Shown in pieces: positions 7,843-23,491 of a stretch of DNA of 37,020 nt. Position 1 is the first letter of the stretch. Each line of letters begins with the position of its first letter. The position numbers and the translations under genes are program-made. The stretch comes from Pseudomonadota bacterium. GTDB taxonomy: Bacteria; Pseudomonadota; Gammaproteobacteria; Steroidobacterales; Steroidobacteraceae. The stretch is taken from the NCBI GenBank assembly GCA_025357635.1, contig JANXOV010000135.1:1-37020 (forward strand). Direction: 5' to 3'. The notes beneath the pieces are model-generated. The model saw only the letters and a list, made by a program, of their open reading frames with translations. It was not told where the DNA came from and ran no database searches.

Positions 7843-7881
7843 CGCATCGCCGCACGCCCGATGCGGCCGCAACGACCGCAT
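7843..7881 (+). terminator. Pair of mutually exclusive hairpins after the SDR gene (weak terminator?)
   Basis: Two stems compete for the middle segment. CGCATCG (7843-7849) pairs with CGATGCG (7859-7865), and ATGCGG (7861-7866) pairs with CCGCAT (7876-7881). No proper T-run follows (only GATTTG), so intrinsic termination is doubtful. It could reduce read-through into the receptor gene. Confidence 0.25.
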
Positions 7882-7883
7882 GA

Positions 7884-7899
7884 TTTGTAATGATACAAA
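7884..7899. promoter_or_regulatory. Inverted repeat upstream of TonB-dependent receptor
   Basis: TTTGTA and TACAAA are perfect 6-bp arms around a 4-bp spacer, ATGA. The repeat lies about 110 bp before the receptor start. A weak promoter candidate follows: TTGCTG near 7919 and GATAAT near 7940, with a short 15-bp spacer. The site could be an operator, but the regulator is unknown. Confidence 0.35.
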
Positions 7900-8011
7900 A
7901 ATTCTTGCGAACCACTTATTGCTGTGTCACAGTTGTGGCGATAATGCTACGACGCATCCTCTTGCGTTGTCCGATAATCCAGGTCCGGTGTCTTGCGCTA
8001 GGAGAATGATG

Positions 8012-10417
8012 ATGGGGATCAAACGTAATTGCATGGCGTTGCTCGGCGTCATGGCCTCGACCGCTATTTTGCCGGTCTTCGCCGCCGACCAGCCTGCCTC
8101 CTCCAACGAGCTGGAAGTGATCACGGTGACGGCGCAAAAGCGCGCCGAGAGCGAGCAGACCGTGCCGCTGTCGATGACCACCTTCGGCGCCGTTGCGCTG
8201 GAGCAAAAGGCCATTGCCACTTTCTTCGATTACGGCACCAAGGTGCCGAATCTTGCCTTCGCGCCCACCGGCGATGGCGTCGGCACCTCGCGCACCATCT
8301 CCATCCGCGGCATCTCCGGTGACAACGTCACCGGTTTCTATGTCGACGAAACCCCGATCCCTGATTCGGTCGATCCGCGCGTGCTGGACATCGACCACAT
8401 CGAAGTGCTGCGCGGCCCGCAAGGCACTTTGTACGGCGCGCGTTCCATGGGCGGCACGGTGCGCGTCATCACCAAGCCGGCCAACCTAAGCACCTTCGAG
8501 GCCACAGTTCATGGTGGCATCGGCAAGACCGCGCAGACCGGGGACCCGAACTATACCGGCGACGCGGTCGTCAATATTCCGCTGATCACCGATCGCCTCG
8601 CGGCACGCGTATCGGGGTTTTATGACCGTCAAGCCGGGTACTTCAAGCGCAGCTTTTGCACGGATCCGGCCACCGCCGGCGTTGATGTCGCCGCAGGCCA
8701 GACCTGCCGGCCTCTGGATGCCGCCGGCGTCACCACTCTGGACAACATCGGTGAGGTCAAGTCCTACGGCGGCGCGGTAAGCCTTACCTTCAAGGTCAAT
8801 GACAATGTCACCATCACGCCACGCCTGATGCGACAGAAGACCACCTTCAATGGCTTTCCCATGGGTGATGTGCTTAGCGCCCCTGGCAATCGTATCGGCT
8901 ATGCATACGGACCGGACTACGCGGATTTCGCGCCGCTTCCCAATGCCTTGCGCCCCGGTTCGCTCACTCAGGCGCGTTGGTTCAACATTGCCGAGGGCGG
9001 GTACGATGACTGGGGCTTGTACTCCGTGGGCGTGAAGTGGAAGACGGCGTTTGGCGAATTCGTCTCATCCACGGCGTACTTCGATCGCAAGGTGGTGGAA
9101 ACCGAGGATGAGACGGATTTCGTCTGGGCCGCCATCATATCTCCGGGCTCGCCCCCTCTGCCGGGAGGGATCACCGAGATTAAGAGCTATCAGCGTTTCG
9201 TTCAGGAAATACGCTTTGCTTCTGAATTGGACGGACCATTGCAGTACGTGGTCGGAGGATTCTATTCGGATTTCCATGGGCGAGTGCCGTTCAACGCCTA
9301 CTATCCGGGAGCGACGGTTCCGGGGTTGGACAATGTGATTGGCGCTGAACTCACGCCGGGATACCCAGATTTGATTTTCGGAAGCGATGGCCATACCAAG
9401 GTGCAGGAGCCCGCGGTGTTTGGCGAACTGTCGTATGAGTTCACCAAGCAATTGAAGGTCACGGCTGGCCTGCGCTGGTACAAGGTGAAAACCAGTGCGG
9501 AAGGCTATCAACGGGGCCTGGCAGTGGGCGGAGGTCCGACCATCGTCGATGCGCCCTCTAGTTCCAGCGAGACTGGGACCAATCCCAAGGTGCAGATCGA
9601 TTACCGCATCACGCCGGACCACATGGTCTATGCCTTGGCCGCCAAGGGTTTCCGTCCGGGCGGATTGGTGCCATCGGTGCCCGCCGGCGATCCCACGCCA
9701 GGCGCTGCGCTCAATTGTCTTGAGAACCTGCAGGCGATCAATCCCAATCTTTCGTTGGACGCGACACGGCGTTTCAAGTCCGATTCGCTGTGGAATTATG
9801 AATTGGGCACCAAGACGACCTGGCTGGAGAATCGCCTGACCGTCAATGCCGCAGCGTTCTTCATCAAGTGGAAGGACATCCAGCAGCAGATCCTGCTGGG
9901 CTGCGGCTTCCAGTACCGCGCCAATGCCGGCGCCGCCGAGAGCAAGGGTGCCGAAGTCGAAGTTCGTGGCCGCGCCACCGAACGCCTGGATTTCTCCGCT
10001 GGTCTGGGCTATCAACGTGCCAAGATCACCGAAGCGAGCTTCACTTCGCCGCAGCAAGTGGGCTCGCCCGTGTACCAGGTCCCCGAGTGGACGGCCAATG
10101 CCGGCGTGAACTACGCCATGCCGATCAACGCCACCTGGAAGCTGGTCAGCGGCGTGGACTTCTCCTACATCGGCAAGAGCTTCAGCGGCAACAATAACCC
10201 CGTCGATCCGCGCGAGCGGCCCTCCTACAACCTGGTGAATGCGCGCATCGCGCTGTCACGCGGGCCGCTGGAGTTTGCCATCGTGGGCAAGAATCTCTCC
10301 GATGAGCGTGCGAACCTCGGTGACAGCCGTTCGATCGCCGCCGAGACGCCGGGACGGCCGCGATTGTTCGTCAATCAGCCGCGCACGATCGGGGTTGAGG
10401 TGCGCGCCTCGTTCTAG
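8012..10417 (+). CDS. TonB-dependent outer membrane receptor
   Basis: This 801-residue protein begins with a signal peptide ending near VFA|AD, then a TonB-box-like segment (EVITVTAQKR). The plug domain contains ISIRGISGDN and the conserved VLRGPQGTLYGARSMGGTVRV block. A long beta-barrel follows and ends in an aromatic residue (RASF). Of three ATGs in tandem (8006, 8009, 8012), the last is best spaced (7 bp) from AGGAG at 8000-8004. The protein takes up a bulky or scarce ligand across the outer membrane using TonB energy. The ligand is unknown; a siderophore, a copper chelate or an organic substrate of the downstream operon are possible. A strong terminator separates it from that operon, so it is probably transcribed on its own. 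Confidence 0.95.
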   Translation: MGIKRNCMALLGVMASTAILPVFAADQPASSNELEVITVTAQKRAESEQTVPLSMTTFGAVALEQKAIATFFDYGTKVPNLAFAPTGDGVGTSRTISIRGISGDNVTGFYVDETPIPDSVDPRVLDIDHIEVLRGPQGTLYGARSMGGTVRVITKPANLSTFEATVHGGIGKTAQTGDPNYTGDAVVNIPLITDRLAARVSGFYDRQAGYFKRSFCTDPATAGVDVAAGQTCRPLDAAGVTTLDNIGEVKSYGGAVSLTFKVNDNVTITPRLMRQKTTFNGFPMGDVLSAPGNRIGYAYGPDYADFAPLPNALRPGSLTQARWFNIAEGGYDDWGLYSVGVKWKTAFGEFVSSTAYFDRKVVETEDETDFVWAAIISPGSPPLPGGITEIKSYQRFVQEIRFASELDGPLQYVVGGFYSDFHGRVPFNAYYPGATVPGLDNVIGAELTPGYPDLIFGSDGHTKVQEPAVFGELSYEFTKQLKVTAGLRWYKVKTSAEGYQRGLAVGGGPTIVDAPSSSSETGTNPKVQIDYRITPDHMVYALAAKGFRPGGLVPSVPAGDPTPGAALNCLENLQAINPNLSLDATRRFKSDSLWNYELGTKTTWLENRLTVNAAAFFIKWKDIQQQILLGCGFQYRANAGAAESKGAEVEVRGRATERLDFSAGLGYQRAKITEASFTSPQQVGSPVYQVPEWTANAGVNYAMPINATWKLVSGVDFSYIGKSFSGNNNPVDPRERPSYNLVNARIALSRGPLEFAIVGKNLSDERANLGDSRSIAAETPGRPRLFVNQPRTIGVEVRASF

Positions 10418-10449
10418 AGGGCGGCGCCCAGCGCGGCAGTTAAAAAGAG

Positions 10450-10475
10450 CGGCGCCTTCGGGCGCCGTTTTTTTT
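10450..10475 (+). terminator. Rho-independent terminator after the receptor gene
   Basis: A 7-bp GC stem, CGGCGCC / GGCGCCG, with a TTCG tetraloop (10457-10460) is followed by eight T residues (10468-10475). It lies about 32 bp after the receptor stop codon. It is the clearest intrinsic terminator in the window. Confidence 0.92.
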
Positions 10476-10484
10476 GGAGAAAAA

Positions 10485-10513
10485 TTGACATTCTCCGCAG
10501 GCAGGCCTACGAT
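10485..10513 (+). promoter_or_regulatory. Sigma70-like promoter of the copper/quinone operon
   Basis: A perfect TTGACA -35 box (10485-10490) is followed after exactly 17 bp by TACGAT (10508-10513), a four-of-six match to the -10 box. It lies just beyond the receptor terminator and about 57 bp before the lipoprotein start codon, so it probably drives the genes from 10570 to 20812. Confidence 0.65.
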
Positions 10514-10569
10514 TTTGAAAAAGTCGATAGTGATTTGCAGATAACTCTACGTTTTTTTCGGGGCACTCC

Positions 10570-12216
10570 ATGTTCAAGAGCTCAGGCACACGCGACGTAC
10601 CCATCGCATGGGGCGTGTGCGCCGTCCTCGGCGCGATCGGGTTGAGCGGCTGCGGCAAGCAGGAACCCAAGCTCACCGGCACCGTGCTCGTGTCCATGGC
10701 CGACAACAGCTATTCGCCCTCCATCGTCCGCGTTCCGGTGGGCGGCTCGATGGTTTTCATCAACACGGGCCGTAACGATCACAATGCGATCGCGGTCGAC
10801 AAGTCCTGGTCCACCGAGAAGACCTTCGGCAACATCAAGATGCGTCCGGAGGACATGAGCGAGGTCGTGTTCTCGAAGCAGGGCGTGTATCCGTTCTATT
10901 GCTCCTTCCACGCCACGCCCGACGGCAAGGTCGGCATGGTCGGCGTGGCGGTGGTGGGCGATGTGCAATACACGCCGCCTTCGGGCGCGCGTGGCGTGCT
11001 CGCGGCGACCGACAAGGCCAGCGGCGTCACGCGGCGCGTTCCGCAGGACTACCCCACCATTCAAAACGGTGTCGATGCGGCCGATCCCGGCGATCTGGTC
11101 CTGATCGACAAGGGTGAATACACCGAGGCCGTGTTCGTCACCACGCCCAGCGTGACGCTGCGCGGCGTCGATCGCAACGCCGTGATACTCGATGGCAAGT
11201 TCGAATTGGGAACGGGCATCATGGTGGGTGGCAATGGCGTGGTCATCGAAAACATGACGGCGCGCAACTACACGCTGAACGGTTTCTTCTGGACCGGCGT
11301 GAAGGGCTTTCGCGGGTCCTACCTGACGGCCTACAACAATGGCGACTACGGCATCTATGCCTTCGGTTCCAGCGACGGATTGTTCGAACACTCCTACGCC
11401 AGCGGTTCACCGGATTCGGGGTTTTACGTCGGGCAGTGCGCGCCGTGCAAGGTGGTGCTGAACGATGTCGTCAGTGCGTACAGCGGCCTCGGATACTCCG
11501 GCACCAACTCCAGCGGCGATATGTACGTGGTGAACTCCCGCTTCGAGCATAACCGCACCGGCATCAGCACGACCACCTTCGACATCGAACTGAATCCGCC
11601 GGGGCGCGATACCACCCTCATGGGCAATCTCGTCAGCGACAGCGGTCTGGACAATGAAGCGGCCGGCTTCTATGCCACCGAGACGCTCGCTGGCAATGGC
11701 ATCGCGCTGGTGGGAACCCACAACAACCGGGTCGAGCGCAACACCGTTCTGCGCAGCCGCAACAACGGCATTCTCATCGTGCCGATTCTCGACCGACACT
11801 ACTGGCCTTCCACCGGTCACGTGGTGCGCAATAATGTGGTGCTGGGCTCCGGCCGCGCCGATCTTGCCGCCGGCGGCCTGGGTACGCGCGGCAATTGCTT
11901 TGCCGGCAATTCCTACCGCACCTCACTGCCGTGGGGATTGCAAACGCTCAACGGGTGCGAAGGGCTGCGCTTGCCCATCGCTTCGGATCTGTCCACGACC
12001 ATGACTTTCTTCGGTTCGATTGCGCAGATCCGCCTCGGTCTATTCAAGCTCAACGATTACCGCACTCGGCCCGTGCCACCGCCGCAGCCGAATATTCCGG
12101 GCGGCATCGACGCGCCGGTGGTGCCCGCAGTGAACGTGTTCGCGGCTGCGAAGCCGGACCTGGATGCGATCAAGGCGCCGTCCGAAACCCGGGTCGACCC
12201 TGCGGTCAAACCATAG
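10570..12216 (+). CDS. Lipoprotein: cupredoxin domain fused to NosD-like right-handed beta-helix
   Basis: This 548-residue protein has a lipobox (IGLSGC, Cys28), so it is likely membrane-anchored on the periplasmic side. Residues 35-135 form a plastocyanin/azurin-like domain with all type-1 copper ligands visible: His71 (in NDHNA), Cys111, His114 and Met123 (CSFH, then GKVGM). From about residue 155 (YPTIQNGVDAADPGDLVLI) to about 480 runs a PbH1-type parallel beta-helix with the Asn-rich turns seen in NosD and pectate-lyase-like proteins. A Pro-rich tail ends the protein. NosD is a periplasmic factor for copper-enzyme maturation, so the fusion suggests copper delivery or electron transfer to the operon's copper enzymes. 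Polysaccharide binding by the helix is the alternative. Confidence 0.88.
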   Translation: MFKSSGTRDVPIAWGVCAVLGAIGLSGCGKQEPKLTGTVLVSMADNSYSPSIVRVPVGGSMVFINTGRNDHNAIAVDKSWSTEKTFGNIKMRPEDMSEVVFSKQGVYPFYCSFHATPDGKVGMVGVAVVGDVQYTPPSGARGVLAATDKASGVTRRVPQDYPTIQNGVDAADPGDLVLIDKGEYTEAVFVTTPSVTLRGVDRNAVILDGKFELGTGIMVGGNGVVIENMTARNYTLNGFFWTGVKGFRGSYLTAYNNGDYGIYAFGSSDGLFEHSYASGSPDSGFYVGQCAPCKVVLNDVVSAYSGLGYSGTNSSGDMYVVNSRFEHNRTGISTTTFDIELNPPGRDTTLMGNLVSDSGLDNEAAGFYATETLAGNGIALVGTHNNRVERNTVLRSRNNGILIVPILDRHYWPSTGHVVRNNVVLGSGRADLAAGGLGTRGNCFAGNSYRTSLPWGLQTLNGCEGLRLPIASDLSTTMTFFGSIAQIRLGLFKLNDYRTRPVPPPQPNIPGGIDAPVVPAVNVFAAAKPDLDAIKAPSETRVDPAVKP

Positions 12217-12239
12217 AACTGCCGCGAAGGAACCCGACC

Positions 12240-12584
12240 ATGCCCAGCCTGTTTTCCGTTTCCTCTCCGGCCACCGCATTCCAGTGGTGGTTCGTCGTCT
12301 ATCTGTATGTGCTGCCGTTCATGCTGTATGCGAGCTGGGCGGCATTGTCTATCCTGGATCTGAACGAACAGTCGACGAAAGGCGGCTCACGGTTGCTGTG
12401 GGGCGCAGCGGTGTTGTTGCTTCCCATCGTGGGCGGCGCTGCGTACCTCCTCGCGGCTGCGCGAACGCTGCGTCCCTCGTCTCGCTACGCCATCGTGTTC
12501 GCAGGCCTCATCGTCTGGCTGATTCCGCTGGCGGTGGGCATCTGGCTTGCCGGTGGTCCGCTCGGACCCAAAGCCCTGAGTTGA
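12240..12584 (+). CDS. Small membrane protein, PLDc_N-like
   Basis: This 114-residue protein has about three hydrophobic helices: residues 15-38 (WWFVVYLYVLPFMLYASW), about 52-74, and about 82-103. The layout resembles the PLDc_N family, a short transmembrane module found free or before phospholipase D domains. It starts 23 bp after the lipoprotein gene, behind GAAGGAA. Its function is unknown; position suggests a membrane partner of the exported copper enzymes. It appears to be a paralogue of the next gene. Confidence 0.75.
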   Translation: MPSLFSVSSPATAFQWWFVVYLYVLPFMLYASWAALSILDLNEQSTKGGSRLLWGAAVLLLPIVGGAAYLLAAARTLRPSSRYAIVFAGLIVWLIPLAVGIWLAGGPLGPKALS

Positions 12585-12608
12585 TCATTTGAATTTGGAG
12601 CGCCTGTC

Positions 12609-12920
12609 ATGAACGTCACCTTGCCCAGCTATCTGCAAATGATCCTCGGACTCTACGGCTATCTGCTGCCACTGCTGCTGTATGTGGTGTGGAGTACGCT
12701 GGCCCTGTGGGATCTGGGGCGGCGTGAGGGCATTGCGGGAGGCGCCGTCTGGGGGTGGGCGTTCCTTATATTCCTCGTGCCCTTCCTCGGCGCGCTGGCC
12801 TATCTTTTTTTCGGTGGCGCAACGCTCAACTCGCGTACACGGCTGGTTGCCGTGGGCGGCGGCGCGGCGATCTATGCCTTGGTGCTGCTGGTCGGTTCGA
12901 GCATCGGCGGCATCAGCTAA
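12609..12920 (+). CDS. Small membrane protein, PLDc_N-like (tandem paralogue)
   Basis: This 103-residue protein has three predicted membrane helices (about residues 10-32, 45-68 and 77-98). It shares the pattern of the preceding protein: a LYVVWSTLALWDL segment, a polar loop, and a Leu/Pro-rich helix ending in AYLFFGG. A GGAGCG ribosome-binding site precedes the ATG. It is directly followed, with no gap, by the multicopper oxidase. The tandem pair suggests a hetero-oligomer in the inner membrane; that is inference only. Confidence 0.75.
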   Translation: MNVTLPSYLQMILGLYGYLLPLLLYVVWSTLALWDLGRREGIAGGAVWGWAFLIFLVPFLGALAYLFFGGATLNSRTRLVAVGGGAAIYALVLLVGSSIGGIS

Positions 12921-13943
12921 ATGCCGCTGCGGCGCCGCGACCTGTTTCGCTTCGGCAGTCTGGGTGGCGCGGTGGGGCTTCTTGGCGCATTGACGCTGCC
13001 CGCGCAGAAACTATTCGGTGCGAAGGAGGCGCAGAAGCTGCCGGACGCGCCGTTGGAAGCAGACTGCAGCGCCGATGCGGGCAAGGGCTTCACCGGGGTG
13101 GGCTACGTGGCGCAGTACGCGCCGCCGAACTATCTCGCCGCGGGCAGCCGGGACGCGCTGCATACCCCGCCCGCCTGGTCGCCGCGCAGCGATGAAATAC
13201 GCGCAGTCGATCTATCCGTGGTCGAAACCACGCTGGAAGTGGCGGGCGGCCAGAATATGCGCGTGTGGGCCTATGGCGGCAGCGTCCCGGGGCCCATCGT
13301 GCGCGCCACGGTGGGTCAGCGACTGCGCATCGGCATGTCCAATCATTCGGGCACTGCGCACAGCGTGCACTTTCACGGTGCGCACGATGTACTGCAGGAT
13401 GGGCTGGGCCGCGTGACGGGTAACGCCGCCGTGAGCTATGAGATCGAAGCCGGACCGGTGGGTCTGCATCCTTATCATTGCCACGTGCCGCCGTATTCAT
13501 GGCATCTGGGCAAGGGCATGTACGGCACGATGATCGTGGATCCGGTGAAGCCCCGGCCCGCGGCACATGAGTTCGTGCTGTGCCTGTGCGGCTTCGATGT
13601 GGACGGCGACGGCCGCAACGAGGTGTATGCCTGGAACGGTGTTGCAGGCTACTACGAGCGCTTCCCTTTGAAGGTGCCGGCCGGTGAACTGGTGCGCATC
13701 TATCTGCTCAACATGGTCGAGCACGACCCGATCGCCTCGTTTCATTTGCATGCGCAGACCTTCGACCTGTATCGGTCGGGGACCTCGCTGACGCCGCACG
13801 AGCACACCGACATCGTGAGTCTGGGTCCGGCGGAGCGCGCCATTCTGGAGTTTCGCCTGCCGCGGCGCGGCCGCTACATGTTCCATCCGCATCAGAGCCG
13901 CATGGCGGAGCGCGGCGCCATGGGATGGATCGTCGCCATATGA
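12921..13943 (+). CDS. Two-domain multicopper oxidase, Tat-exported
   Basis: This 340-residue protein begins with a twin-arginine signal (RRRDLFRFGS and a hydrophobic stretch). Two cupredoxin domains are visible. Domain 1 has HFH (150-152) and the block from HCH (186-188) to H195 and M200, giving a complete type-1 copper set with Cys187. Domain 2 has HLH (275-277) and HPH (322-324) but no cysteine. The pattern fits a two-domain laccase/nitrite-reductase-like oxidase with trinuclear coppers at subunit interfaces. It would oxidise a metal, phenolic compound or protein electron donor in the periplasm and reduce O2. It abuts the preceding gene and overlaps the SCO1 gene by ATGA. Confidence 0.9.
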   Translation: MPLRRRDLFRFGSLGGAVGLLGALTLPAQKLFGAKEAQKLPDAPLEADCSADAGKGFTGVGYVAQYAPPNYLAAGSRDALHTPPAWSPRSDEIRAVDLSVVETTLEVAGGQNMRVWAYGGSVPGPIVRATVGQRLRIGMSNHSGTAHSVHFHGAHDVLQDGLGRVTGNAAVSYEIEAGPVGLHPYHCHVPPYSWHLGKGMYGTMIVDPVKPRPAAHEFVLCLCGFDVDGDGRNEVYAWNGVAGYYERFPLKVPAGELVRIYLLNMVEHDPIASFHLHAQTFDLYRSGTSLTPHEHTDIVSLGPAERAILEFRLPRRGRYMFHPHQSRMAERGAMGWIVAI

Positions 13944-14476
13944 CCCATCGCGCACGCTGCCTGACGGCGGCGTTCATTCTGTGCTGCTCGGCGGCGGCTC
14001 GCACGGCGCCGGATTCCAGGCTGATCGATCAATACGGGCATCGCGTCGGCGCGCAGGAATTGAGCGGGCACTGGCTGCTGGTGTATTTCGGCTATGCCGC
14101 CTGTCCGGATATCTGTCCCACGACGTTGACCAAGATGACTGTGGTCATGAACCGGCTGGGCAGCGCCGGCGCGGCGATCACGCCGCTTTTTGTCTCTGTG
14201 GATCCCGAGCGTGACACGCCGGCGCGGCTGCGCAAGTTCGCGGCGCATTTTCATCCGCGGCTGCGCGCACTGACGGGCGACAGGGCAGCGCTGGCCGATG
14301 CCGCGCAAACCTTCGGCGTGCCCTGGAAGAGTGCCGGCGGCGGCATCGATCATGGCGTGATGCTGTATCTGGCGGCGCCGGATGGCCGGGTGGTGCGGAC
14401 CTTTCACCCCGGTCAGCCCGTCGAGGACATACTCGCAGGCATTCACGCGGAATTGATCAAGCCGACGCGCCAATGA
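13940..14476 (+). CDS. SCO1/SenC-type copper chaperone
   Basis: This 178-residue thioredoxin-fold protein has the SCO copper motif CPDIC (Cys55 and Cys59) and the distal ligand His138 (GIDHG). An N-terminal signal peptide (to about residue 25) puts it in the periplasm or on the membrane. SCO proteins deliver copper or reduce cysteines during assembly of copper enzymes, most often cytochrome oxidase. Here no oxidase subunits are nearby, so the client is probably the multicopper oxidase or the amine oxidase of the same operon. The ATG at 13940 overlaps the upstream TGA; an ATG five codons earlier is less likely. Confidence 0.92.
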   Translation: MTHRARCLTAAFILCCSAAARTAPDSRLIDQYGHRVGAQELSGHWLLVYFGYAACPDICPTTLTKMTVVMNRLGSAGAAITPLFVSVDPERDTPARLRKFAAHFHPRLRALTGDRAALADAAQTFGVPWKSAGGGIDHGVMLYLAAPDGRVVRTFHPGQPVEDILAGIHAELIKPTRQ

Positions 14477-15087
14477 TCGGCCGGCGCGAAATGCAGAAGC
14501 AGAAACGCCGCGCGGCCATGCTGCGCGCGGCGGGCCGGCTGTTCGACAAGCAAGGCTATGCCCGCACCACGTTCGAGGAAATCGCGGCGGCGGCGGGCGT
14601 CGGCGTCGCCACGGTCTATAAATATTTCAATTCCAAGCAGGGCTTGGTGATTGCACTGCTCGAGCCGGATCTGCTGCGAATCCTGTCGTCGGCGCAAAAG
14701 GTCATCGATCGGCTGCCGGCGGATCCGGCGAAGTCGATGGTTCAGCTGCTGTCCTGCTACGGCGATCTCGGCGGACACAACTGGGCGAGCCGGGAGTTGC
14801 TGCAGCTCACCGTGTTTCCGGGTCTGGGCAACGAAGGACTGCTGACCGAGTTCGTGCGCCGCGCGGAGTCGGGGACCATGCGTCAGATTTCAGAACTGCT
14901 GCGTCGGCAAAAAACGGCGGGACGGCTTCGTGCAAACCTGCCGGTGGAGGATGCCACCGCCGTCATATTCGCGCTGCTGAATCAGAACTTCGGCATGTAC
15001 ATGTTCGATCCGCAGTTGAGTTATGCGCGCATGTTCCGGCAACTGTCGCGGCGCGTACAATTGGTGTTCACAAACTGGTGCGCTTGA
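14473..15087 (+). CDS. TetR/AcrR family transcriptional regulator
   Basis: This 204-residue protein has an N-terminal HTH: RRAAMLRAAGRLFDKQGYAR, then VGVATVYKYFNSKQGLV, at about residues 12-58. The C-terminal helical ligand domain has no clear subfamily signature. It starts at the ATG overlapping the SCO1 stop (ATGA), so it is made together with the operon it probably controls. A candidate target is the promoter at 10485-10513. The ligand might be the amine, alcohol or aldehyde processed by the operon, but nothing in the sequence shows this. Confidence 0.9.
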   Translation: MIGRREMQKQKRRAAMLRAAGRLFDKQGYARTTFEEIAAAAGVGVATVYKYFNSKQGLVIALLEPDLLRILSSAQKVIDRLPADPAKSMVQLLSCYGDLGGHNWASRELLQLTVFPGLGNEGLLTEFVRRAESGTMRQISELLRRQKTAGRLRANLPVEDATAVIFALLNQNFGMYMFDPQLSYARMFRQLSRRVQLVFTNWCA

Positions 15088-15103
15088 GGCAAGGGGAACT
15101 CAT

Positions 15104-16126
15104 ATGACTATTTCTCGACGGGCATTCCTGGGCAGTGGCGGCGCTGCATTGACGGTTCCCGCGCTTGCATCCGCTGGCGGCGGCAGCGTACATCCTGTGC
15201 AGTTTGCCAACAGCGCGGTGGCCAACGGCCGCGCCGATGGCGTGAAAACCAGCGGCGCGCGCATGGTGGACATCCCCGGCGGACATCAGGTCTGGGTCAA
15301 GCAGATCGGACATGGCCCCATTGCGGTGCTGCTGCTGCATGGCGGGCCGGGCATGTCGCATTTCTACTTCGAATGTTTCGAGGAGTTTCTCCCCGTCGAT
15401 GAGTTCCGGTTTTATTACTACGATCAGTTGGGCTGCGGTTTCTCAGACAGGCCGGACGATGTAAAGCTCTGGACGGTGGATCGATACCGGGAGGAAGTTG
15501 AAGCCGTGCGGGTTGCGCTGGGATTGGAGCGGTTCATTCTGTTCGGTCATTCCTGGGGCGGCATGCTCGCCATGGAATATGCGCTGCGCTATCAGCAGCA
15601 TCTGAGCGCCCTGGTGGTGTCGAACATGACCGCCGGCGTCGCCGCCTACGTCAAGTATGCGAACGAATTGCGCGCGCAGTTACCGGCCGATGTCCAAAAG
15701 GCGATGAAAGCCTACGAGGACAAGGGCGACACCAAAGCGCCTGGCTACCAGCAGCTGATCATGGACCACCTGTACTCACGTCATCTGTGCCGCCTGAAAC
15801 CATGGCCCGAGCCATTCTCGCGCACCATGCGCTTCATGAACGCGAGCGTCTATGAAACCATGCAAGGGCCCGATGAGTTCAACATCGTCGGCAACTACAA
15901 GGATTGGGATCGCTGGAACGATCTGCATCTGATCAAGACGCAGACGCTGCTGCTGGGCGGGCGGCACGACACCATGTCGCCGCAGGACCTGCAGCGCATG
16001 AGCCGGCTGATTCCCGATGCACGTGTCGTGATCTGCGACAACGGCAGCCACATGTCCATGTACGACGATCAGCAGCATTACTTCGAGGCGCTGTTGAAAT
16101 TCCTGCGGGCGCCGCGGCGTGCGTAG
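15104..16126 (+). CDS. Alpha/beta hydrolase, proline iminopeptidase-like (S33), Tat-type signal
   Basis: This 340-residue hydrolase has the nucleophile elbow GHSWGG, the oxyanion region LLLHGGPGMSH, an Asp in GGRHDTMSP and a His in NGSHMSM, completing a Ser-Asp-His triad. The HGGPG motif is typical of proline iminopeptidases and related amidases. SRRAFLGSGGAAL at the N-terminus is a Tat-like signal, so this copy should be exported, unlike cytoplasmic S33 peptidases. AAGGGGAA precedes the ATG. It may release amines or amino acids from amides or peptides for the amine oxidase downstream. Esterase or lactonase activity is also possible. Confidence 0.9.
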   Translation: MTISRRAFLGSGGAALTVPALASAGGGSVHPVQFANSAVANGRADGVKTSGARMVDIPGGHQVWVKQIGHGPIAVLLLHGGPGMSHFYFECFEEFLPVDEFRFYYYDQLGCGFSDRPDDVKLWTVDRYREEVEAVRVALGLERFILFGHSWGGMLAMEYALRYQQHLSALVVSNMTAGVAAYVKYANELRAQLPADVQKAMKAYEDKGDTKAPGYQQLIMDHLYSRHLCRLKPWPEPFSRTMRFMNASVYETMQGPDEFNIVGNYKDWDRWNDLHLIKTQTLLLGGRHDTMSPQDLQRMSRLIPDARVVICDNGSHMSMYDDQQHYFEALLKFLRAPRRA

Positions 16127-18308
16127 ACGCTTGCGATCGTTGTTTGGCCGCGCGCTGGTTGCGATGCTGGTGGCGCCGGGTGTTGGCGTCGCAGCGGACG
16201 GCAGGCCGGCAGCGACACCGGCTCACGCAGGAGCGCTGGACCTGCGCCGCCTGCAAAACGCTTCGCAGGAGCCGGATCAATGGTTCACCGGCGGACGAGA
16301 CGCCGGCGGCACCTACTATTCACCGCTTAAACTCATCACCCCGGATAACGCGCAACGCCTGGGCTTTGCGTGGCAGTACGCGCTCGGCACGCGCCGCGGT
16401 CTGCAGTCCACGCCCATTGTCATCGACCAGGTGATGTACACCTCGGGAAACTGGGGCCGCGTTTACGCGCTCGAGGCCAGGTCAGGACGCGAACTGTGGA
16501 CCTACGACCCGAAGCCCGACACGCAATGGGGCCGCTACGCCTGCTGCGATGTCGTCAATCGCGGCGTTGCCGTGTGGAAAGGCAAGGTGTTCGTCGGCTC
16601 CACCGATGGATTTTTGCACGCGCTGGACGCGCGCACAGGAAGGCAGGTGTGGAAGAGCGACACCTTGTCGCCCGCCGACCGCGCGCATCACGTGCCCTAC
16701 ACGATCTCCGGCGCACCGCAGATCGCCGGCAATGTGGTGGTCATCGGCAACGGCGGTGCGGACTTCGGCGTGCGCGGCTACCTCAGCGCTTACGATCTGG
16801 ACACCGGCAAACCCGCGTGGCGGTTTTACACGGTGCCGCGCGACCCCAGGCAAGGAGCGCAGGACCAAGAGCATCTGATCGCCGCATCGAAGACCTGGGA
16901 TCCCGACGGCGACTGGTCATTCGGCGGTGGCGGCACCGCCTGGGATGGCATGGCCTACGATCCCAAACTGGATCTGGTCTATGTGGGCACCGGCAATGCC
17001 TCGCCCTACAGCTGGAAGGAGCGCTCGCCGCGCGGCGGCGACAATCTGTATCTGGCCTCGATTGTTGCCATTCACGCCAAGTCAGGAAAGCTTGCCTGGC
17101 ATTTTCAGGAAGTGCCTGGGGAGAACTGGGACTACACCTCCACGGCAAAAATGATTCTCGCCGATCTGACCATCGGCGGCCGGCCGCGTCAGGTGTTAAT
17201 GCATGCGCCGAAAAACGGCTTCTTTTATGTGCTGGATCGCGCCAGCGGCGAGTTTTTGAGCGGCAAGGCTTTCACCTACGTCAACTGGACCACGGGTCTG
17301 GACCCCAAGACCGGACGTCCCACGCGCAGCGCAGCGGCGGACTACACGCGCGAAGCCAGGCTCATCGTGCCGGGCATGTCCGGCGCGCATAACTGGCATC
17401 CCATGTCCTACAGTGCGCTCACGCACCTGGTGTACATTCCCGTCATCGAAGCGCCCTGGGTGTTCTTCGACACCCGGCACTCGCGCGCCGGCTTGATCGA
17501 GGGCACGTTCACGGTGAGCAGCGTGCCGCCGGAGTTCTACGATCCGGCCGGCATGCAAGGCCTGTTCGGGCCGTTGCCGGCATTGCTTGACTTGTCCAAG
17601 GGCGTTGCCGGCGCAATCAAGACCGGCGGCCGCATCCGCGCCTGGGATCCGGTGAAACAATCCGTCGTGTGGGAGCAGCCGGGCAGCGGCTTTTGGGATG
17701 GCGGCATTTTGTCCACCGCGGGCAATCTGGTGATTCGCGGCGACACGGCCGGGTTTCTCAATGTTTATCAGTCGGACACGGGCCGTTTTCTATCGCGGCT
17801 GGAGGTGGGCACCTCCATCATGGCGGCGCCGATGAGCTACGCCATCGAGGGCGAACAGTATGTCGCCGTCATGGCAGGATTCGGCGGCGGCGGCGCGGGT
17901 GTTCCGTTTGCGCCGGACTCCGCCGCCTACAAGTACGGCAACGAGGGCCGCATCATCGCTTTCAAACTGGGCGGCGGCGCCGTTCCCAAACCCGAGCCGC
18001 TGCCGGAGCAGCCCTTTGAACAACCCATCGCGCGCTTCGGGACCGCTGCGCAGAGGGCGCAGGGGGAAGTTCTTTACAATCGATTCTGTTCGCGCTGTCA
18101 TGCCATGGGACGCGGACTGCTGCCCGATCTGCGCCGGCTCACGCCGGAGAAGCATTCGATTTTTCCGGCCATCGTATTGAAAGGCGCGCTGCTGCCGCTG
18201 GGCATGGCGCGCTTCGACGATGTGCTGTCGGCGGATGATGTCACCGCGATACACGCCTACCTGGTCGATCAGGCCTGGTTGGCTTTCGAATCGCAAACCA
18301 AACACTAG
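16119..18308 (+). CDS. PQQ-dependent dehydrogenase with C-terminal cytochrome c (quinohemoprotein)
   Basis: This 729-residue protein starts with GTG and a signal peptide ending near VAA|DG. It has the eight-bladed propeller of type II alcohol dehydrogenases: the vicinal disulfide Cys142-Cys143 over PQQ, the calcium-site segment GTGNASPY, and the catalytic Asp338 (in NWDYTS). A cytochrome c domain at the end has CSRCH (657-661) and the axial Met696 (LPLGMARF). It oxidises alcohols or aldehydes in the periplasm and passes electrons through its own haem. It overlaps the preceding hydrolase gene by 8 bp and precedes the amine oxidase by 12 bp. No PQQ biosynthesis genes lie in the window. Confidence 0.95.
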   Translation: MRRRLRSLFGRALVAMLVAPGVGVAADGRPAATPAHAGALDLRRLQNASQEPDQWFTGGRDAGGTYYSPLKLITPDNAQRLGFAWQYALGTRRGLQSTPIVIDQVMYTSGNWGRVYALEARSGRELWTYDPKPDTQWGRYACCDVVNRGVAVWKGKVFVGSTDGFLHALDARTGRQVWKSDTLSPADRAHHVPYTISGAPQIAGNVVVIGNGGADFGVRGYLSAYDLDTGKPAWRFYTVPRDPRQGAQDQEHLIAASKTWDPDGDWSFGGGGTAWDGMAYDPKLDLVYVGTGNASPYSWKERSPRGGDNLYLASIVAIHAKSGKLAWHFQEVPGENWDYTSTAKMILADLTIGGRPRQVLMHAPKNGFFYVLDRASGEFLSGKAFTYVNWTTGLDPKTGRPTRSAAADYTREARLIVPGMSGAHNWHPMSYSALTHLVYIPVIEAPWVFFDTRHSRAGLIEGTFTVSSVPPEFYDPAGMQGLFGPLPALLDLSKGVAGAIKTGGRIRAWDPVKQSVVWEQPGSGFWDGGILSTAGNLVIRGDTAGFLNVYQSDTGRFLSRLEVGTSIMAAPMSYAIEGEQYVAVMAGFGGGGAGVPFAPDSAAYKYGNEGRIIAFKLGGGAVPKPEPLPEQPFEQPIARFGTAAQRAQGEVLYNRFCSRCHAMGRGLLPDLRRLTPEKHSIFPAIVLKGALLPLGMARFDDVLSADDVTAIHAYLVDQAWLAFESQTKH

Positions 18309-18320
18309 AGAGGATGATGC

Positions 18321-20285
18321 ATGAAGAGCCGTTTCCCCCTGCCGTTGACGTTGATTGCGTTGGGTCTGTCGTTGGTGGGCGCCGCCGCCGCTGCGCATCC
18401 GCTGGATGCGTTGAATGCCGATGAGTTGAACAAAACCGTGCAGGTGCTGCGCGAGGCGAAGCTCGCCGACGACTCGGGGCGTTTCGGCATCATCCGCTTG
18501 CAGGAGCCGCCGAAGGCTGAGGTGCTGGCCTGGCACGAAGGCGTGGTTCTGCATCGCCAAGCCTACGTTAATCTGCGTCAGAAGCGCCGGCTTTACCAGG
18601 GCGTCGTCGACCTGACCGATGGCAAGATCGTGCGCTGGGCGGAGATCAAGGACGAGCAGGCCAGCTTCCTGCTCGAGGAGCTTCTCGGCGCCACGGATAT
18701 CGTCAAGACCGATGCCGGATGGCGCAAGGCCATGAAGCTGCGCGGCTACACCCAGTACGAGGGCATCACCTGCAATCCGCTGGCGGCCGGCTACTTCGGC
18801 GCCAGCACGCCGCGTGCTGTGCGGCTGATGAACGTGCCGTGCTTCGATATGGGCGATCGCAGCAACAACATTTTTGCGCGACCCATCGAAGGTTTGATGG
18901 CGGTGGTGGATCTGGATACGAAGAAGGTGCTGCGGCTGATCGATCTGGGCGTCATTCCGGTCCCTGCCACCGCGCCCACGCATGACTACGCCACCATCGA
19001 CAAGTACCGGCCACAGATCAAGCCGGTTGAAATCGAGGCGCCGCAGGGCGCCAACTACACGATTTCCGGTGGTTTGATCCGCTGGGATAACTGGTCCTTC
19101 CACCTGCGCATGGACCGCCGTGTCGGCGCGGTGGTCTCGCTGGTGAAATACGATGACCGCGGCACGCAGCGCCAGGTCGCATACCAGATTTCCCCGTCGG
19201 AAATGTTCGTGCCGTACATGGACCCGTCCCCCACCTGGTCGTTCAAGTCCTACATGGACATCGGCGAGTACGGGTTCGCCGTGCTGGCCTCGCCGTTGGC
19301 GCAAGGCCGCGATTGTCCGGCGAATGCCACGTATCTGGCGGTCACGCTCAGCGACGATCGCGGCAAGCCGGTGGCCACCGAAAAGATCGTGTGCGTGTTC
19401 GAACGCGCCACCGGCGATCCGGTGTGGCGGCATTACGAGATTTTCAATCAGACGCACGAGAGCCGGCCTGAAACCGAACTCGTCGTGCGCTTCGTGCCCA
19501 CCGTCGGCAATTACGATTATCTGATCGACTACGTGTTCAATCAGAAGGGCGAGATTGCGGTGCGCATCGGCGCCACCGGCATCGACTCGGTGAAGGGCGT
19601 TCTGAGCAAGACCCTGAGCGACCCGACGGCCGCGGCGGATACGGCTTACGGCACGCTCGTGGCGCCGAACCTCGTGGCCATCAATCACGATCACTACATC
19701 AATTTCCGTCTTGATCTGGACGTGGACGGTCAGAACAACAGCTTCGTCGAAGACAAGCTCGTGCCCAGCCGCTTGCCCGCCGACAATCCCCGACGCAGTC
19801 TATGGACGGTTCACAGTGAGCGCGTCGCGCAGGAAGGGCCTGTCACGAGCGACCTGCATCGCACTTTCTGGCGCATCATCAATCCGGCGCAAGTTTCCAA
19901 GACCGGCTATCCGCGCGGGTTCGTCATCCTTCCCGGCCACGCCGATCAATCGCTGCTATCGCCGGATGATCCGCCGCAACAGCGCGCGGCGTTTTCGGCA
20001 GAGCAACTGTGGATCACGCAGTATCGCCCCGAGGAGTTGCATGCGGGCGGTGATTTCCCCAATCAAAGCAAGGGTGGCGACGGCCTGCCGGCGTACGTCG
20101 CCGACCGGCAGGACATCATCAACAAGGACCTCGTGTTCTGGTACACGGTGGGCTTTCGTCACGTGCCCCGCTCGGAGGATTGGCCCGTCATGCCCACGCT
20201 GTACTCGGGGTTCATGATTCGTCCGCAGAATTTTTTCGATCAGAGTCCGGCTATGGACGTGGCGCCGACCTTCAAGGCGCCTTGA
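18321..20285 (+). CDS. Copper amine oxidase (topaquinone), exported
   Basis: This 654-residue enzyme has a signal peptide (about 24 aa) and the family core. The topaquinone precursor is Tyr398 in the N-Y-D-Y motif (GNYDYLIDY). The catalytic base is Asp313 (YMDIGEYG). The copper ligands are His456 and His458 (NHDHYINF) and His614 (GFRHVP). Length fits bacterial enzymes (about 640-720 aa). It converts a primary amine with water and O2 to an aldehyde, ammonia and H2O2 in the periplasm. AGAGAGGATG gives a good ribosome-binding site. The adjacent PQQ dehydrogenase could oxidise the aldehyde. The precise amine is not readable from the sequence. Confidence 0.96.
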   Translation: MKSRFPLPLTLIALGLSLVGAAAAAHPLDALNADELNKTVQVLREAKLADDSGRFGIIRLQEPPKAEVLAWHEGVVLHRQAYVNLRQKRRLYQGVVDLTDGKIVRWAEIKDEQASFLLEELLGATDIVKTDAGWRKAMKLRGYTQYEGITCNPLAAGYFGASTPRAVRLMNVPCFDMGDRSNNIFARPIEGLMAVVDLDTKKVLRLIDLGVIPVPATAPTHDYATIDKYRPQIKPVEIEAPQGANYTISGGLIRWDNWSFHLRMDRRVGAVVSLVKYDDRGTQRQVAYQISPSEMFVPYMDPSPTWSFKSYMDIGEYGFAVLASPLAQGRDCPANATYLAVTLSDDRGKPVATEKIVCVFERATGDPVWRHYEIFNQTHESRPETELVVRFVPTVGNYDYLIDYVFNQKGEIAVRIGATGIDSVKGVLSKTLSDPTAAADTAYGTLVAPNLVAINHDHYINFRLDLDVDGQNNSFVEDKLVPSRLPADNPRRSLWTVHSERVAQEGPVTSDLHRTFWRIINPAQVSKTGYPRGFVILPGHADQSLLSPDDPPQQRAAFSAEQLWITQYRPEELHAGGDFPNQSKGGDGLPAYVADRQDIINKDLVFWYTVGFRHVPRSEDWPVMPTLYSGFMIRPQNFFDQSPAMDVAPTFKAP

Positions 20286-20812
20286 AGCACCAGGCTGCAC
20301 GCTGCGTCATCGCCGGGGGCGTGCTGGCCGCGGCGAGTGTCGCGGCCGGTCCACGTGATTTTGATCCGTTGCACCCACCGGCGGCTATCGGCGAAACATT
20401 GGCGCAGGTGCTGGCGCGGTGGGGCGAAGCGGCCTCGTTCGGCGCGGACTGCGGCTCGTGGCGCGGCCCGTCGGTGGACACGCTCATGCGCTGGCGCGGT
20501 GATGAACTGCGGGTGATGGCGCTGCTGCGCGGGGATCGGGTGACGGCGCTGCGCTACGAACGCCGATCCGGTCGAAGCCCGGATTTTGAGCACTGCCTGT
20601 CACAGTTGAATGCGTTTGCCGCGCAGTGGAAGGGCAGCGGAATCGATGCGGGTGATGCCAGAGAGCCGCTTTACGACGGACCGGTGCTGCGTGCAGTGCG
20701 CCCGGCGATGCGGCAAGGACTGGTCAACGGCAGCTTCGAGGCAGACTATCGCGCCAGCCGTGAGGAATGCCGCGTAGCGCTGATCGCCATTGGAGAGTCA
20801 TTGCCGCGCTGA
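20282..20812 (+). CDS. Hypothetical secreted protein, coupled to amine oxidase
   Basis: I place the start at a TTG overlapping the amine oxidase stop (TTGA). It gives 176 aa with a clear signal peptide (AARCVIAGGVLAAASVAAG). Three Cys residues lie in the mature part (in GADCGSW, EHCL and EECR). No family is recognised. The pattern of a short alpha/beta domain with W-R-G-D repeats does not point to an enzyme. Translational coupling suggests it is an accessory of the amine oxidase, perhaps for folding or cofactor maturation. It ends 6 bp from the convergent aminotransferase. Confidence 0.7.
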   Translation: MKHQAARCVIAGGVLAAASVAAGPRDFDPLHPPAAIGETLAQVLARWGEAASFGADCGSWRGPSVDTLMRWRGDELRVMALLRGDRVTALRYERRSGRSPDFEHCLSQLNAFAAQWKGSGIDAGDAREPLYDGPVLRAVRPAMRQGLVNGSFEADYRASREECRVALIAIGESLPR

Positions 20813-20818
20813 AGGCCG

Positions 20819-22171
20819 CTACCCGCGCCCGATCTCGCGCAACGCCGCGCGCACGCATTCTCCGAATATGCCGGTGATCTCGCCCAGCTGCTCCCGCGTC
20901 GTGATGTAGGGCGGCGCCAGAATCACCGCATCACCGCGAGCGCCGTCGACATTCCCGGAAATGGCGTAGCACAGCAATCCGCGGTCCACGGCCTGCTTGC
21001 CGATGCGCGCGCTGAGCTGCTGTCTGGGCTCGAACGGCGTCTTCGTCACCCGATCGGCAACGAACTCCACGCCGACAAAAAAGCCGCGGCCGCGGATGTC
21101 GCCAACCGCCTCGATGCCCTTCAACGCATCGCGCAGCAGGGATTTCAGCACATCGCCCTCGCTCTTGATCCGCGCCACCAGGTTGTCGCGCCTGATGATG
21201 CGTTGTACGGCGGCGCCGGCAGCGCAGGCGGCCGTGTGCGCGGTGAACGTATGACCGGTGAGCGGGCCGCCGTCGTGCCTGGCGAGCACATCGAGAATGA
21301 AGTTCTGGTACACGGTGGCGCCCAGCGGTATGTAGCCGCCGCCCAGGCCCTTGGCGATGGCCATGATGTCTGGCACCACGCCGTCGTGTTCGAGCGCGCG
21401 CCAGGTGCCGCAGCGTGCCGAACCGCACATGACTTCGTCGGCGATCATCAGCACGCCATGGCGGGTGCAGATATCGCGCACGCGCTGCGCGTAGCCCGGA
21501 GGTGCGGGGACCACGCCGCCGGCGGCGCCGACCACGGGTTCGAATATGAACGCTGCCACGTTGAGCGCACCCAGCCGCAAGATCTCCTCTTCCAGTTCGG
21601 CGGCGCAGTGCTCGCTCAGACGGCCGGGGTCCACGCCGAGCGGCGGGCGATAGGCATTGACCGATGACAGGAAGGAGGCATCGATGAGCGCTCCTTCGAA
21701 CGGCGCGCGGCGGCTGGCGAAATCCGACACCGACAGCGCGCCCAGCGTATTGCCGTGCCAGGAGCGGCGGCGCGAAATGAAACGGCGGCGCGATTGCTCG
21801 CCGCGCGCGGAGTGGTACTGCAGCGCAATCTTCAGCGCGGACTCCACCGCCTCTGATCCGCCGGACACGTACACGATGGAGTCCAATCCGTGACCGCACC
21901 ACTGGGCGATCTGCGCGCTCAGTTCCTCTTGCGGATCGCTGGTGAAACTGTAGCGATAGCCGTGCGCGATCTTGTCGAGCTGCGTCTTGATCGCCTCATT
22001 GACTTCGGCGTGACTGTGCCCGAGGCAGTACACGGCCGGTCCACCGGAGGCATCGATGTAGCGCTTGCCGCTGGTGTCGTAGACATAAATCCCCTGGCCG
22101 TAGGCGACGCGCGGCAGCGCGCCTTTGGTGATGAGCGCGGCAGCCCAGCTGTTGTCGTCGTCTTTTTTCAT
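20819..22171 (-). CDS. Class III (omega) aminotransferase
   Basis: This 450-residue PLP enzyme starts at the ATG overlapping the permease stop (ATGA); a longer frame upstream lies inside the permease and is rejected. The PLP lysine is Lys274 (AIAKGLGGGY), preceded by the cofactor Asp in IADEVMCGS. The wording CGTWRALEHDGVVPDIM is typical of bacterial omega-amino-acid/amine:2-oxo-acid transaminases annotated as aspartate aminotransferase family. It likely moves an omega- or beta-amino group to pyruvate or 2-oxoglutarate in the cytoplasm. It is the last gene of the leftward IclR-permease operon, and pairing with a transporter fits import and deamination of one substrate. Confidence 0.9.
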   Translation of the reverse strand: MKKDDDNSWAAALITKGALPRVAYGQGIYVYDTSGKRYIDASGGPAVYCLGHSHAEVNEAIKTQLDKIAHGYRYSFTSDPQEELSAQIAQWCGHGLDSIVYVSGGSEAVESALKIALQYHSARGEQSRRRFISRRRSWHGNTLGALSVSDFASRRAPFEGALIDASFLSSVNAYRPPLGVDPGRLSEHCAAELEEEILRLGALNVAAFIFEPVVGAAGGVVPAPPGYAQRVRDICTRHGVLMIADEVMCGSARCGTWRALEHDGVVPDIMAIAKGLGGGYIPLGATVYQNFILDVLARHDGGPLTGHTFTAHTAACAAGAAVQRIIRRDNLVARIKSEGDVLKSLLRDALKGIEAVGDIRGRGFFVGVEFVADRVTKTPFEPRQQLSARIGKQAVDRGLLCYAISGNVDGARGDAVILAPPYITTREQLGEITGIFGECVRAALREIGRG

Positions 22172-23475
22172 TGATTCACTCTGCGCATGATCCAGAACAC
22201 CGGCACGCCGGCGAGCAATAACACGAAGCCCCATTTCACCGCAGTGGCGCCCGCGCCCACGATGGCCCAGAGGGAATACAGAGCGGCGACCACCGCGACG
22301 ACCGCGATCGCGCGCGAGCCTTTGCCGGTGTTGGGCAGCTTCCCCGTCCACTGCAGCCGCAGCAGCGCCAGCGCGCACAGCACATACATGACGAGGCAGG
22401 CGGTGGTGGAGAGCAGCACCATGAAGGTGAATATGTCGACCATGGACTTGGCCGAGTTCATCAAGATCAGCGCGCTCACCAGGGAGCTTCCGAAAATCAT
22501 CGCAAACTGCGGCGTATTGCGCGCCGACAGCCGGCCAAAAATGGCGGGAAACACGCCGTTACGCGCCATGGCGCTGGGCAGCTCGCCCTGCAGCAGGATC
22601 CAGCCGTTGAGACAGCCGAAGCCACTGATGGCGGCAAACGCAGCCAACAACTGCGCGCTGCGCTCTCCCCAGAACAACCGCGCCACATCGGCGAAGGGCG
22701 CGGTGGAGGATTTCAATTGATCCGTGGGCAGCAGGATCAGCACCGCGCCGCAGGCGATGATGTAAATGATGGCGGTGACGATGGTGCCATATAGTGTCGC
22801 GCGTGGGATGGTGCGGCGCGGATCGCGCACCTTGTCCGCCGGAATGGTGGCGGACTCTATCCCCATCAGGCCCCACAGCGTCAGCGTTGCGGCCGCGGTG
22901 ACGCCGCTCACCGAGAGCGGGATGGCGGCGTTGCGCGAGAAGTCTTCCGCATGCACGTAGAACAGGGCGAACCCTGCGATGGCCAGCAGCGGCATCAGCT
23001 TCATGACGGTGGTGACGTTCTGCACCCAGCCGCTGGCCTTGGTCCCGCGGCAATTCACCAGCGTAAGCAGCCACACAATGCCCAGAGTCAGAGCGGCCGA
23101 TGCGCTGGGGGTCTTCGTCATTTGCGGGAACAGCGGTGTCAGATAGCTGATCGTGCCGGTGGCGATGGCCGCATTGCCCACCCAGATCGACACCCAGTAG
23201 CCCCAGGCCACGATGAAGGCGACGAAGGGGCCAAAGGCTTCCTGCGTATAGGCGTAAGGTCCGCCCGCGCGCGGAAAGGCCTTGCTCAAATGCGAGAAAA
23301 CAATCGCCAGCAGGATGGCGCCCGCGGCCGTGAACCCCCAGGCGATCATGCTGTTCATGCCGAATTCGGCGAGCGAGGCGGGCAGCAGGAAAATGCCGGA
23401 ACCGATCATGTTGCCCACCACCAGCGCCACGCAAGTCCAGAATCCGATCAGATGCGGTGTGGTGCTGCGATTCAC
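22168..23475 (-). CDS. APC-superfamily amino acid/amine permease
   Basis: This protein has about 12 hydrophobic helices. Its first helix carries the signature VVGNMIGSGIFLLPASLA, typical of the basic amino acid/polyamine antiporter branch of APC permeases. Conserved GPYAYTQEAFG follows in the region after helix 2. I chose the GTG at 23475, 17 bp after the IclR stop, which gives the usual short cytoplasmic N-terminus (435 aa). An ATG at 23520 would add 15 residues and overlap iclR by 29 bp. It imports (or exchanges) an amino acid or amine across the inner membrane. Co-transcription with an aminotransferase suggests that substrate is next deaminated. Confidence 0.88.
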   Translation of the reverse strand: MNRSTTPHLIGFWTCVALVVGNMIGSGIFLLPASLAEFGMNSMIAWGFTAAGAILLAIVFSHLSKAFPRAGGPYAYTQEAFGPFVAFIVAWGYWVSIWVGNAAIATGTISYLTPLFPQMTKTPSASAALTLGIVWLLTLVNCRGTKASGWVQNVTTVMKLMPLLAIAGFALFYVHAEDFSRNAAIPLSVSGVTAAATLTLWGLMGIESATIPADKVRDPRRTIPRATLYGTIVTAIIYIIACGAVLILLPTDQLKSSTAPFADVARLFWGERSAQLLAAFAAISGFGCLNGWILLQGELPSAMARNGVFPAIFGRLSARNTPQFAMIFGSSLVSALILMNSAKSMVDIFTFMVLLSTTACLVMYVLCALALLRLQWTGKLPNTGKGSRAIAVVAVVAALYSLWAIVGAGATAVKWGFVLLLAGVPVFWIMRRVNQ

Positions 23476-23491
23476 GAAACAGCGCTCATGC

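Follow-up and report, generated by a model that had tools for sequence, protein, structure and literature searches.

The ten genes on the forward strand at positions 10570–20812 of the window (the whole stretch of 37,020 nucleotides that was analysed) probably form a composite, in which a conserved copper module (g0 and g1–g6) is followed by a lineage-specific tail (g7–g10). The preference for this reading rests mainly on the composite structure; the electron route from g1 to g4, which was proposed by analogy, is doubtful when taken alone. The original prediction had suggested that the ten genes could work as one pathway of amine oxidation. This was not supported by the comparison with other genomes: g7, g9 and g10 accompany the copper genes in none of eight loci, and six genomes that were searched whole all lack the amine oxidase. 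The host genome (completeness 100, contamination 0.42) comprises 4.29 Mb and is split into 182 contigs, one of which (C104) is the window. Every protein of the string appears, from its sequence, to belong in or near a known family. The features are as follows:

7880–10417, forward strand: TonB-dependent receptor, g0 (Pfam TonB_dep_Rec, 148 bits)
10450–10475, forward strand: terminator-like hairpin followed by T8 (read by eye; the scan lists this hairpin for the reverse strand only)
10485–10513, forward strand: sigma-70-like promoter TTGACA-17-TACGAT (10/12 consensus; spacing kept in other loci)
10525–10550, forward strand: candidate TetR operator (three mismatches to GTATAG-N14-CTATAC)
10570–12216, forward strand: lipoprotein with cupredoxin and beta-helix, g1 (Pfam, PDB match and conserved ligands)
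12240–12584, forward strand: small membrane protein, paralogue of g3, g2 (cross-matches with g3; homologue in 8/8 loci)
12609–12920, forward strand: small membrane protein with PLDc_N, g3 (28.6 bits, cut-off 23.3; homologue in 8/8 loci)
12921–13943, forward strand: Tat-type, type C two-domain multicopper oxidase, predicted, g4 (motifs; homologue in 8/8 loci)
13940–14476, forward strand: SCO1/SenC copper chaperone, g5 (131.7 bits, cut-off 22.8; CxxxC and distal His; 6/8 loci)
14473–15087, forward strand: TetR-family regulator, g6 (Pfam; adjacent in 4/8 loci)
15104–16126, forward strand: Tat-type alpha/beta hydrolase of the proline iminopeptidase family, g7, tail (TIGR01250, 322.2 bits, cut-off 167.65)
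16119–18308, forward strand: type II quinohaemoprotein alcohol dehydrogenase, g8, tail (TIGR03075, 543.7 bits, cut-off 480.05)
18321–20285, forward strand: topaquinone copper amine oxidase, g9, tail (Pfam, 443.6 bits, cut-off 27)
20282–20812, forward strand: small secreted protein, g10, tail (TTG start, probably overlapping the stop of g9)

The compact arrangement that had been predicted was found in the sequence, with all ten genes on the forward strand at or near the positions given earlier. Neighbouring genes overlap or are separated by no more than 24 bp. The gaps measure 23 bp (g1–g2), 24 bp (g2–g3), 0 bp (g3–g4), 16 bp (g6–g7) and 12 bp (g8–g9); g4–g5 and g5–g6 are joined by ATGA overlaps, g7–g8 by an overlap of 8 bp and g9–g10 by a TTGA overlap. 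The gene families named earlier were also right, as judged by Pfam and NCBIfam matches, and g2 was found as a frame within the open reading frame 11895–12584. For three genes the gene itself stood and its start was revised: position 13940 is better than 13925 for the SCO gene, ATG 15104 better than 15023 for the hydrolase and TTG 20282 better than 20180 for the small secreted protein, which gave no match in Pfam or NCBIfam. The earlier limits of the string also omitted the receptor gene g0, which accompanies the copper set elsewhere and is separated from g1 in the window by the hairpin and T8.

The promoter-like site TTGACA-17-TACGAT is the sole one on the forward strand within 7600–24500. A scan of both strands of this region found two sites against 3.7 expected by chance, so the score by itself proves nothing. 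Support comes instead from conservation. In four other loci (L036, L037, L038 and L040), TTGACA or TTGACG and, after 17 bases, a hexamer resembling a −10 element occupy the corresponding position 5' of g1, and it is on this basis that the prediction of one promoter ahead of the string was upheld. Given their spacing and the lack of another forward promoter-like site in this region, the ten genes may be transcribed as a single unit, and the link of the tail to the module would consist of this co-transcription only.

g1 is a lipoprotein composed of an N-terminal type 1 copper cupredoxin and a right-handed beta-helix. The beta-helix was recognised by Pfam (Beta_helix, 43.1 bits, cut-off 25.9), Cupredoxin_1 fell just below its cut-off (26.2 against 27), and the best PDB match was 5fc9 (E 2.3e-8). 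The type 1 ligands His, Cys, His and Met are kept in 9/9 full-length proteins, and a CxxC in the beta-helix in 11 of 12 proteins. A structure model of g1 (pLDDT 57.4, pTM 0.57) gave Foldseek matches to beta-helix carbohydrate enzymes and to plastocyanins, which, as the confidence of the model is low, may be taken to support the domain layout only. NosD and the TIGR03805 proteins resemble g1 in being exported beta-helix proteins near copper genes and in giving partial model matches. However, g1 stays under the cut-offs of both, and it differs in its additional N-terminal type 1 copper domain and the conserved CxxC. Identification as NosD was rejected (Pfam 22.2 against a cut-off of 23.6; TIGR04247 33.3 against 300), and the match to the TIGR03805 beta-helix family amounted to 71.4 bits under a cut-off of 141.5.

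From its sequence, g4 is a type C two-domain multicopper oxidase by the definition given in PMC13151041. Its layout is HCH..H..M in domain 1 and HPH without Cys in domain 2; the histidines of HFH, HCH, HxH and HxH are kept in 10/10 proteins, the type 1 Cys is confined to domain 1 in the same 10/10, and the axial Met is replaced by Leu in two of the ten. The best solved relatives, PDB 3gdc and 7rab, share with it two cupredoxin domains, a type 1 Cys in the first domain only and all four HxH motifs. As a NirK nitrite reductase (TIGR02376) g4 was rejected, with 70 bits against a cut-off of 296.3. The SCO protein g5 keeps its CxxxC and distal His in 7/7 proteins.

According to one alternative, the copper module serves in copper detoxification or as a laccase system, and the tail is unrelated to it. 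The closest multicopper oxidases on plasmids adjoin metal transporters, Rieske proteins and metal P-type ATPases, and a SCO protein together with a cupredoxin would suit copper handling. In the three plasmid neighbourhoods examined, metal transporters and Rieske proteins stand in place of the cupredoxin–beta-helix lipoprotein, the PLDc_N proteins and the SCO protein that lie beside g4. Against this alternative, the module is without a copper exporter, a CopB/CopC-type gene or a copper-sensing regulator, and its regulator belongs to the TetR family and is no known copper sensor. On balance, a detoxification or laccase system was considered unlikely.

The composite reading was drawn from a survey of other genomes. 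Among 98 relatives, the best match to g1 outside the host genome had an E value of 2.2e-23 and covered the beta-helix portion only, and at 1e-30 g1 was found in 2 of the 369 genomes of the class sample, namely the host itself and G216. Eight loci were obtained when 84,980 species genomes were scanned, namely L035–L040 from five Proteobacteria (G462–G466), L041 from Acidimicrobiales and L042 from Chloroflexi, and a sample of 395 genomes from the order of G463 gave four genomes, of which G767 and G620 were new. G462–G466, G216, G767 and G620 were then used as the comparison set of eight genomes.

Homologues of g2, g3 and g4 follow g1 in 8/8 loci of this set, those of g2 and g3 matching each other. 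A SCO gene comes next in six; G462 has none, and the contig of G466 ends 160 bp after g4. A TetR gene is adjacent in G463, G464, G465 and G216, in the last of these 5' of g1. TonB-dependent receptors are adjacent in six of the eight, at 64–69% identity in G462–G466 and as a distant, divergent gene in G216; G767 and G620 have none within their 20-kb loci. In L035, the receptor stop and the start of g1 are 1 bp apart. The co-occurrence that had been put forward as a check on the string thus held for one part of it only: the copper genes recur together in eight genomes, and g7 (hydrolase), g9 (amine oxidase) and g10 (small secreted protein) lie in 0/8 loci. Six of these loci extend at least 7 kb beyond the module, and those of G464 and G466 break off shortly behind it. 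A relative of g8 is adjacent in one locus, L038, on the opposite strand and behind the receptor. The same locus, from G465, carries genes of a CoA pathway directly upstream of the copper module (L038:836–9774), which we take to be of the phenylacetate type.

Pairwise identities of g1 rise with those of g2 (rho 0.93), g3 (0.85) and g4 (0.95) over 36 genome pairs and with those of g5 (0.91) over 21 pairs, with permutation p values of 0.0005–0.001; these correlations, like those below, are uncorrected for host phylogeny, and common ancestry would yield the same sign. For TetR, rho was 0.92 (p 0.03, 10 pairs), and for the receptor the correlation was weak (rho 0.59, p 0.07, 15 pairs). Two of the more distant loci bear on the partnership of g1 with its neighbours. 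In Chloroflexi (L042:9653–11494, one metagenome assembly), a frame of 613 residues combines a beta-helix and a PLDc_N-like membrane segment in one protein without a cupredoxin, which argues for g1 acting with g2 and g3. In Acidimicrobiales (L041), a full-length relative of g1 has a DUF1996 protein as its neighbour, and the 5.5-kb contig carries no other part of the module, which counts against an obligate partnership of g1 with the module.

The palindrome in the window begins 11 bases past the promoter hexamers. The consensus GTATAG-N14-CTATAC occurs before g1 without mismatch in G465 and G216 and with one mismatch in G463, G464 and G466; G216 has a second palindrome (one mismatch) between the TetR gene and the receptor. 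In a background of 237,804 bases from 14 other loci there were no sites with up to one mismatch, two with up to two and 15 with up to three. The copy in the window has three mismatches and is weak when taken alone, as sites of this quality occur 15 times in the background; the window itself holds five sites with up to three mismatches. The association is with the regulator: the site is present in 5/5 genomes with an adjacent TetR gene (the host included), and G462, G767 and G620, which have no adjacent TetR gene, have no palindrome with up to two mismatches. Among the genomes in which TetR adjacency could be judged, this association would arise by chance in 1 of 56 arrangements, as calculated by hand. 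Since these three genomes have neither the adjacent TetR gene nor the palindrome, the module is apparently regulated in more than one way. The palindrome of G216 is not placed behind the likely promoter but overlaps with it. A genome-wide search for ATAGT-N12-ACTMTA gave one exact site, the window's own, and eight sites with one mismatch, whereas the reversed control gave more (32); the M in this pattern was chosen after the site in the window had been seen, and the search is hence no unbiased test. An unbiased operator pattern gave three sites in the window against 1.8 expected.

Three of the four tail genes (g7–g9) encode enzymes of recognisable families. g9 aligns over its full length with the E. 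coli amine oxidase 1d6u, its best PDB match, and the motifs TVGNYDY, NHDH, FRHVPR and MDIGEYG align with it; these we take to contain the topaquinone (TPQ) tyrosine (NYD), the copper HxH with the third His, and the catalytic Asp. The predicted topaquinone and copper enzyme thus appears intact in its cofactor, copper and catalytic-base motifs. Because it aligns throughout with the E. coli enzyme, the substrates of g9 are probably primary amines that are aromatic or short. It resembles the TynA-type enzymes, which are its closest solved relatives, in all three motif groups. It differs from them in that it shares at most 43–44% identity with its genome and plasmid relatives, in that it scores 622.6 bits in NCBIfam PRK11504, under the cut-off of 651, and in that no aldehyde dehydrogenase is directly paired with it. 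It is the sole copper amine oxidase of the host genome.

g8 likewise bore out the predicted family of PQQ–cytochrome c dehydrogenases: it scores above the cut-off of TIGR03075 and looks intact, with the vicinal Cys pair, the catalytic Asp and the CxxCH haem site. Its best PDB match is 1kv9, and with 1kv9 and 1yiq, type II quinohaemoprotein alcohol dehydrogenases, it shares the PQQ propeller, the Cys pair, the Asp and the C-terminal haem c. A D-x-D at the metal site of quinoproteins is a lanthanide signature; g8 reads D-x-T, and D-x-D was found in seven of eight relatives from module genomes (L038, L043–L046, L049 and L050). The setting of g8 differs from that of 1kv9 and 1yiq in the supply of cofactor. 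PqqC gave no match in the host, in a search in which 5/7 genomes passed the cut-off, and the best PqqE match in the host reached 61.5 bits against a cut-off of 381.35, in a search in which no genome passed. The string is therefore not self-sufficient in PQQ, and g8 would need an imported cofactor. Import of PQQ without synthesis is described as common in PMC12124388.

Since PqqC is present in five genomes with the receptor (G462, G463, G464, G466 and G216) and absent in G465, the receptor g0 does not follow the need for PQQ. The missing PQQ genes had suggested g0 as a PQQ receptor, which was not supported by the comparison with PqqU: g0 has no full-length similarity to E. coli PqqU, the alignment being local (28% over 196 positions, E 3e-6). 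Receptors related to g0 adjoin quinoprotein genes in L038, L065 and L066, the last two being 2 of 19 listed quinoprotein places, and this adjacency is a lead only. The hydrolase g7 was matched in 3 of 369 class genomes, the host included, and the short stretches around the other two copies contained no other gene of the window.

A second alternative holds that the module is a copper-only periplasmic electron sink, in which the quinoprotein reduces g1 and g1 reduces g4, so that g8 is functionally joined to the module, with the amine oxidase as a mere passenger. The type 1 site of g1 is intact, and g4 has a nitrite-reductase-like type 1 site in its N-terminal domain. Nitrite reductases with such a site take electrons from cupredoxins. 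g8 bears a haem c domain, and relatives of it are present in five of the six module genomes searched whole, one of them adjacent in L038. However, adjacency is limited to this one locus of eight, and no relative was found in G462 at E 1e-60. Quinoproteins occur elsewhere in the five genomes in up to five copies per genome, and presence alone says little about a protein that is multicopy. An electron sink of this form therefore seems distinctly unlikely.

In the composite reading that is preferred here, TetR would bind the palindrome at the promoter until a ligand frees transcription, and the receptor g0 would import a substrate or a metal complex. The SCO protein and the unit formed by the beta-helix protein g1 and the membrane proteins g2 and g3 would load copper into periplasmic proteins. 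The blue-copper lipoprotein g1 might then pass electrons to g4, which would reduce oxygen to water. The tail would be made simultaneously from the same promoter, supplying an amide-type hydrolase (g7), a quinohaemoprotein alcohol or aldehyde dehydrogenase (g8) and an aromatic amine oxidase of the E. coli type (g9). A more speculative proposal, to which a rather low probability was given, regards g1–g5 as a copper-only periplasmic oxidase, with g1 and its two PLDc_N partners serving both as the copper-loading scaffold and as the electron donor of g4, and the whole as a plug-in oxygen-reducing end point. If this were true, lineages would attach different periplasmic dehydrogenases or oxidases to g1–g5 under a local TetR switch.

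The distribution of the amine oxidase bears on the pathway that had originally been predicted. Among 98 relatives the only copy was the window's own, and a query of 369 class genomes returned this copy and five others at 34–43% identity. The enzyme was absent from all six module genomes searched whole (G462–G466 and G216; G767 and G620 lay outside the search). Eight neighbourhoods of other amine oxidases were compared, three on plasmids and five in genome regions, one of the eight being just 3.7 kb long. None contained a copper-set gene, and in three an aldehyde dehydrogenase related to that of the window lay nearby. A shared neighbourhood of amine oxidase and cupredoxin–beta-helix gene, which the original prediction had named as a check, was thus absent from the eight module loci as well as from these eight neighbourhoods.

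On the pathway reading, all ten genes would serve a single exported route: an amine released by the hydrolase would be turned into an aldehyde by the amine oxidase and then into an acid by the quinoprotein, and the copper genes would mature the enzymes. This reading was judged quite improbable: the common string and promoter, the active-site motifs of g9, the amine-related genes downstream in the window, the CoA genes of L038 and an amidase directly behind the SCO gene in G216 speak for it, but the tail does not travel with the copper set, the amine oxidase is missing from the whole genomes searched, PqqC was not found in the host and PqqE not above its cut-off, and other amine oxidases lie near an aldehyde dehydrogenase (3/8) and never near the copper set (0/8). 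As a conserved unit this pathway was rejected by the module loci, the whole genomes and the amine oxidase neighbourhoods, and it stays a rival for the host genome.

No description of the ten-gene set was found in the open-access literature, in agreement with the original prediction, and none was found there of the five-gene copper set. Little is understood of how type C two-domain multicopper oxidases work in vivo. In the recurring set, such an oxidase is provided with a cupredoxin–beta-helix lipoprotein of its own, a pair of membrane proteins, a copper chaperone and a predicted operator, so that both its partners and its inducer become open to direct tests. More generally, a tidy operon in one genome is not necessarily one pathway, and here it was comparison that split the conserved module from the added tail.

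Downstream of the string, positions 20819–28894 carry on both strands genes of amino acid and amine catabolism, including two class III aminotransferases, a polyamine-antiporter-like permease, an IclR regulator, an aldehyde dehydrogenase and two CoA-transferase subunits. The aldehyde dehydrogenase (24403–25971) lies 4.1 kb from the amine oxidase g9, past three genes of the opposite strand. Further on, an exported protein at 28891–31473 combines a WD40-like propeller with a metallohydrolase domain of the CehA/McbA type, and a large lipoprotein-like protein that matched nothing in Pfam lies at 34160–36277, where the G+C content is lower (0.568). At the other end of the window (405–3481), a gene for a methylmalonyl-CoA mutase subunit on the forward strand adjoins a MeaB GTPase gene on the reverse strand.
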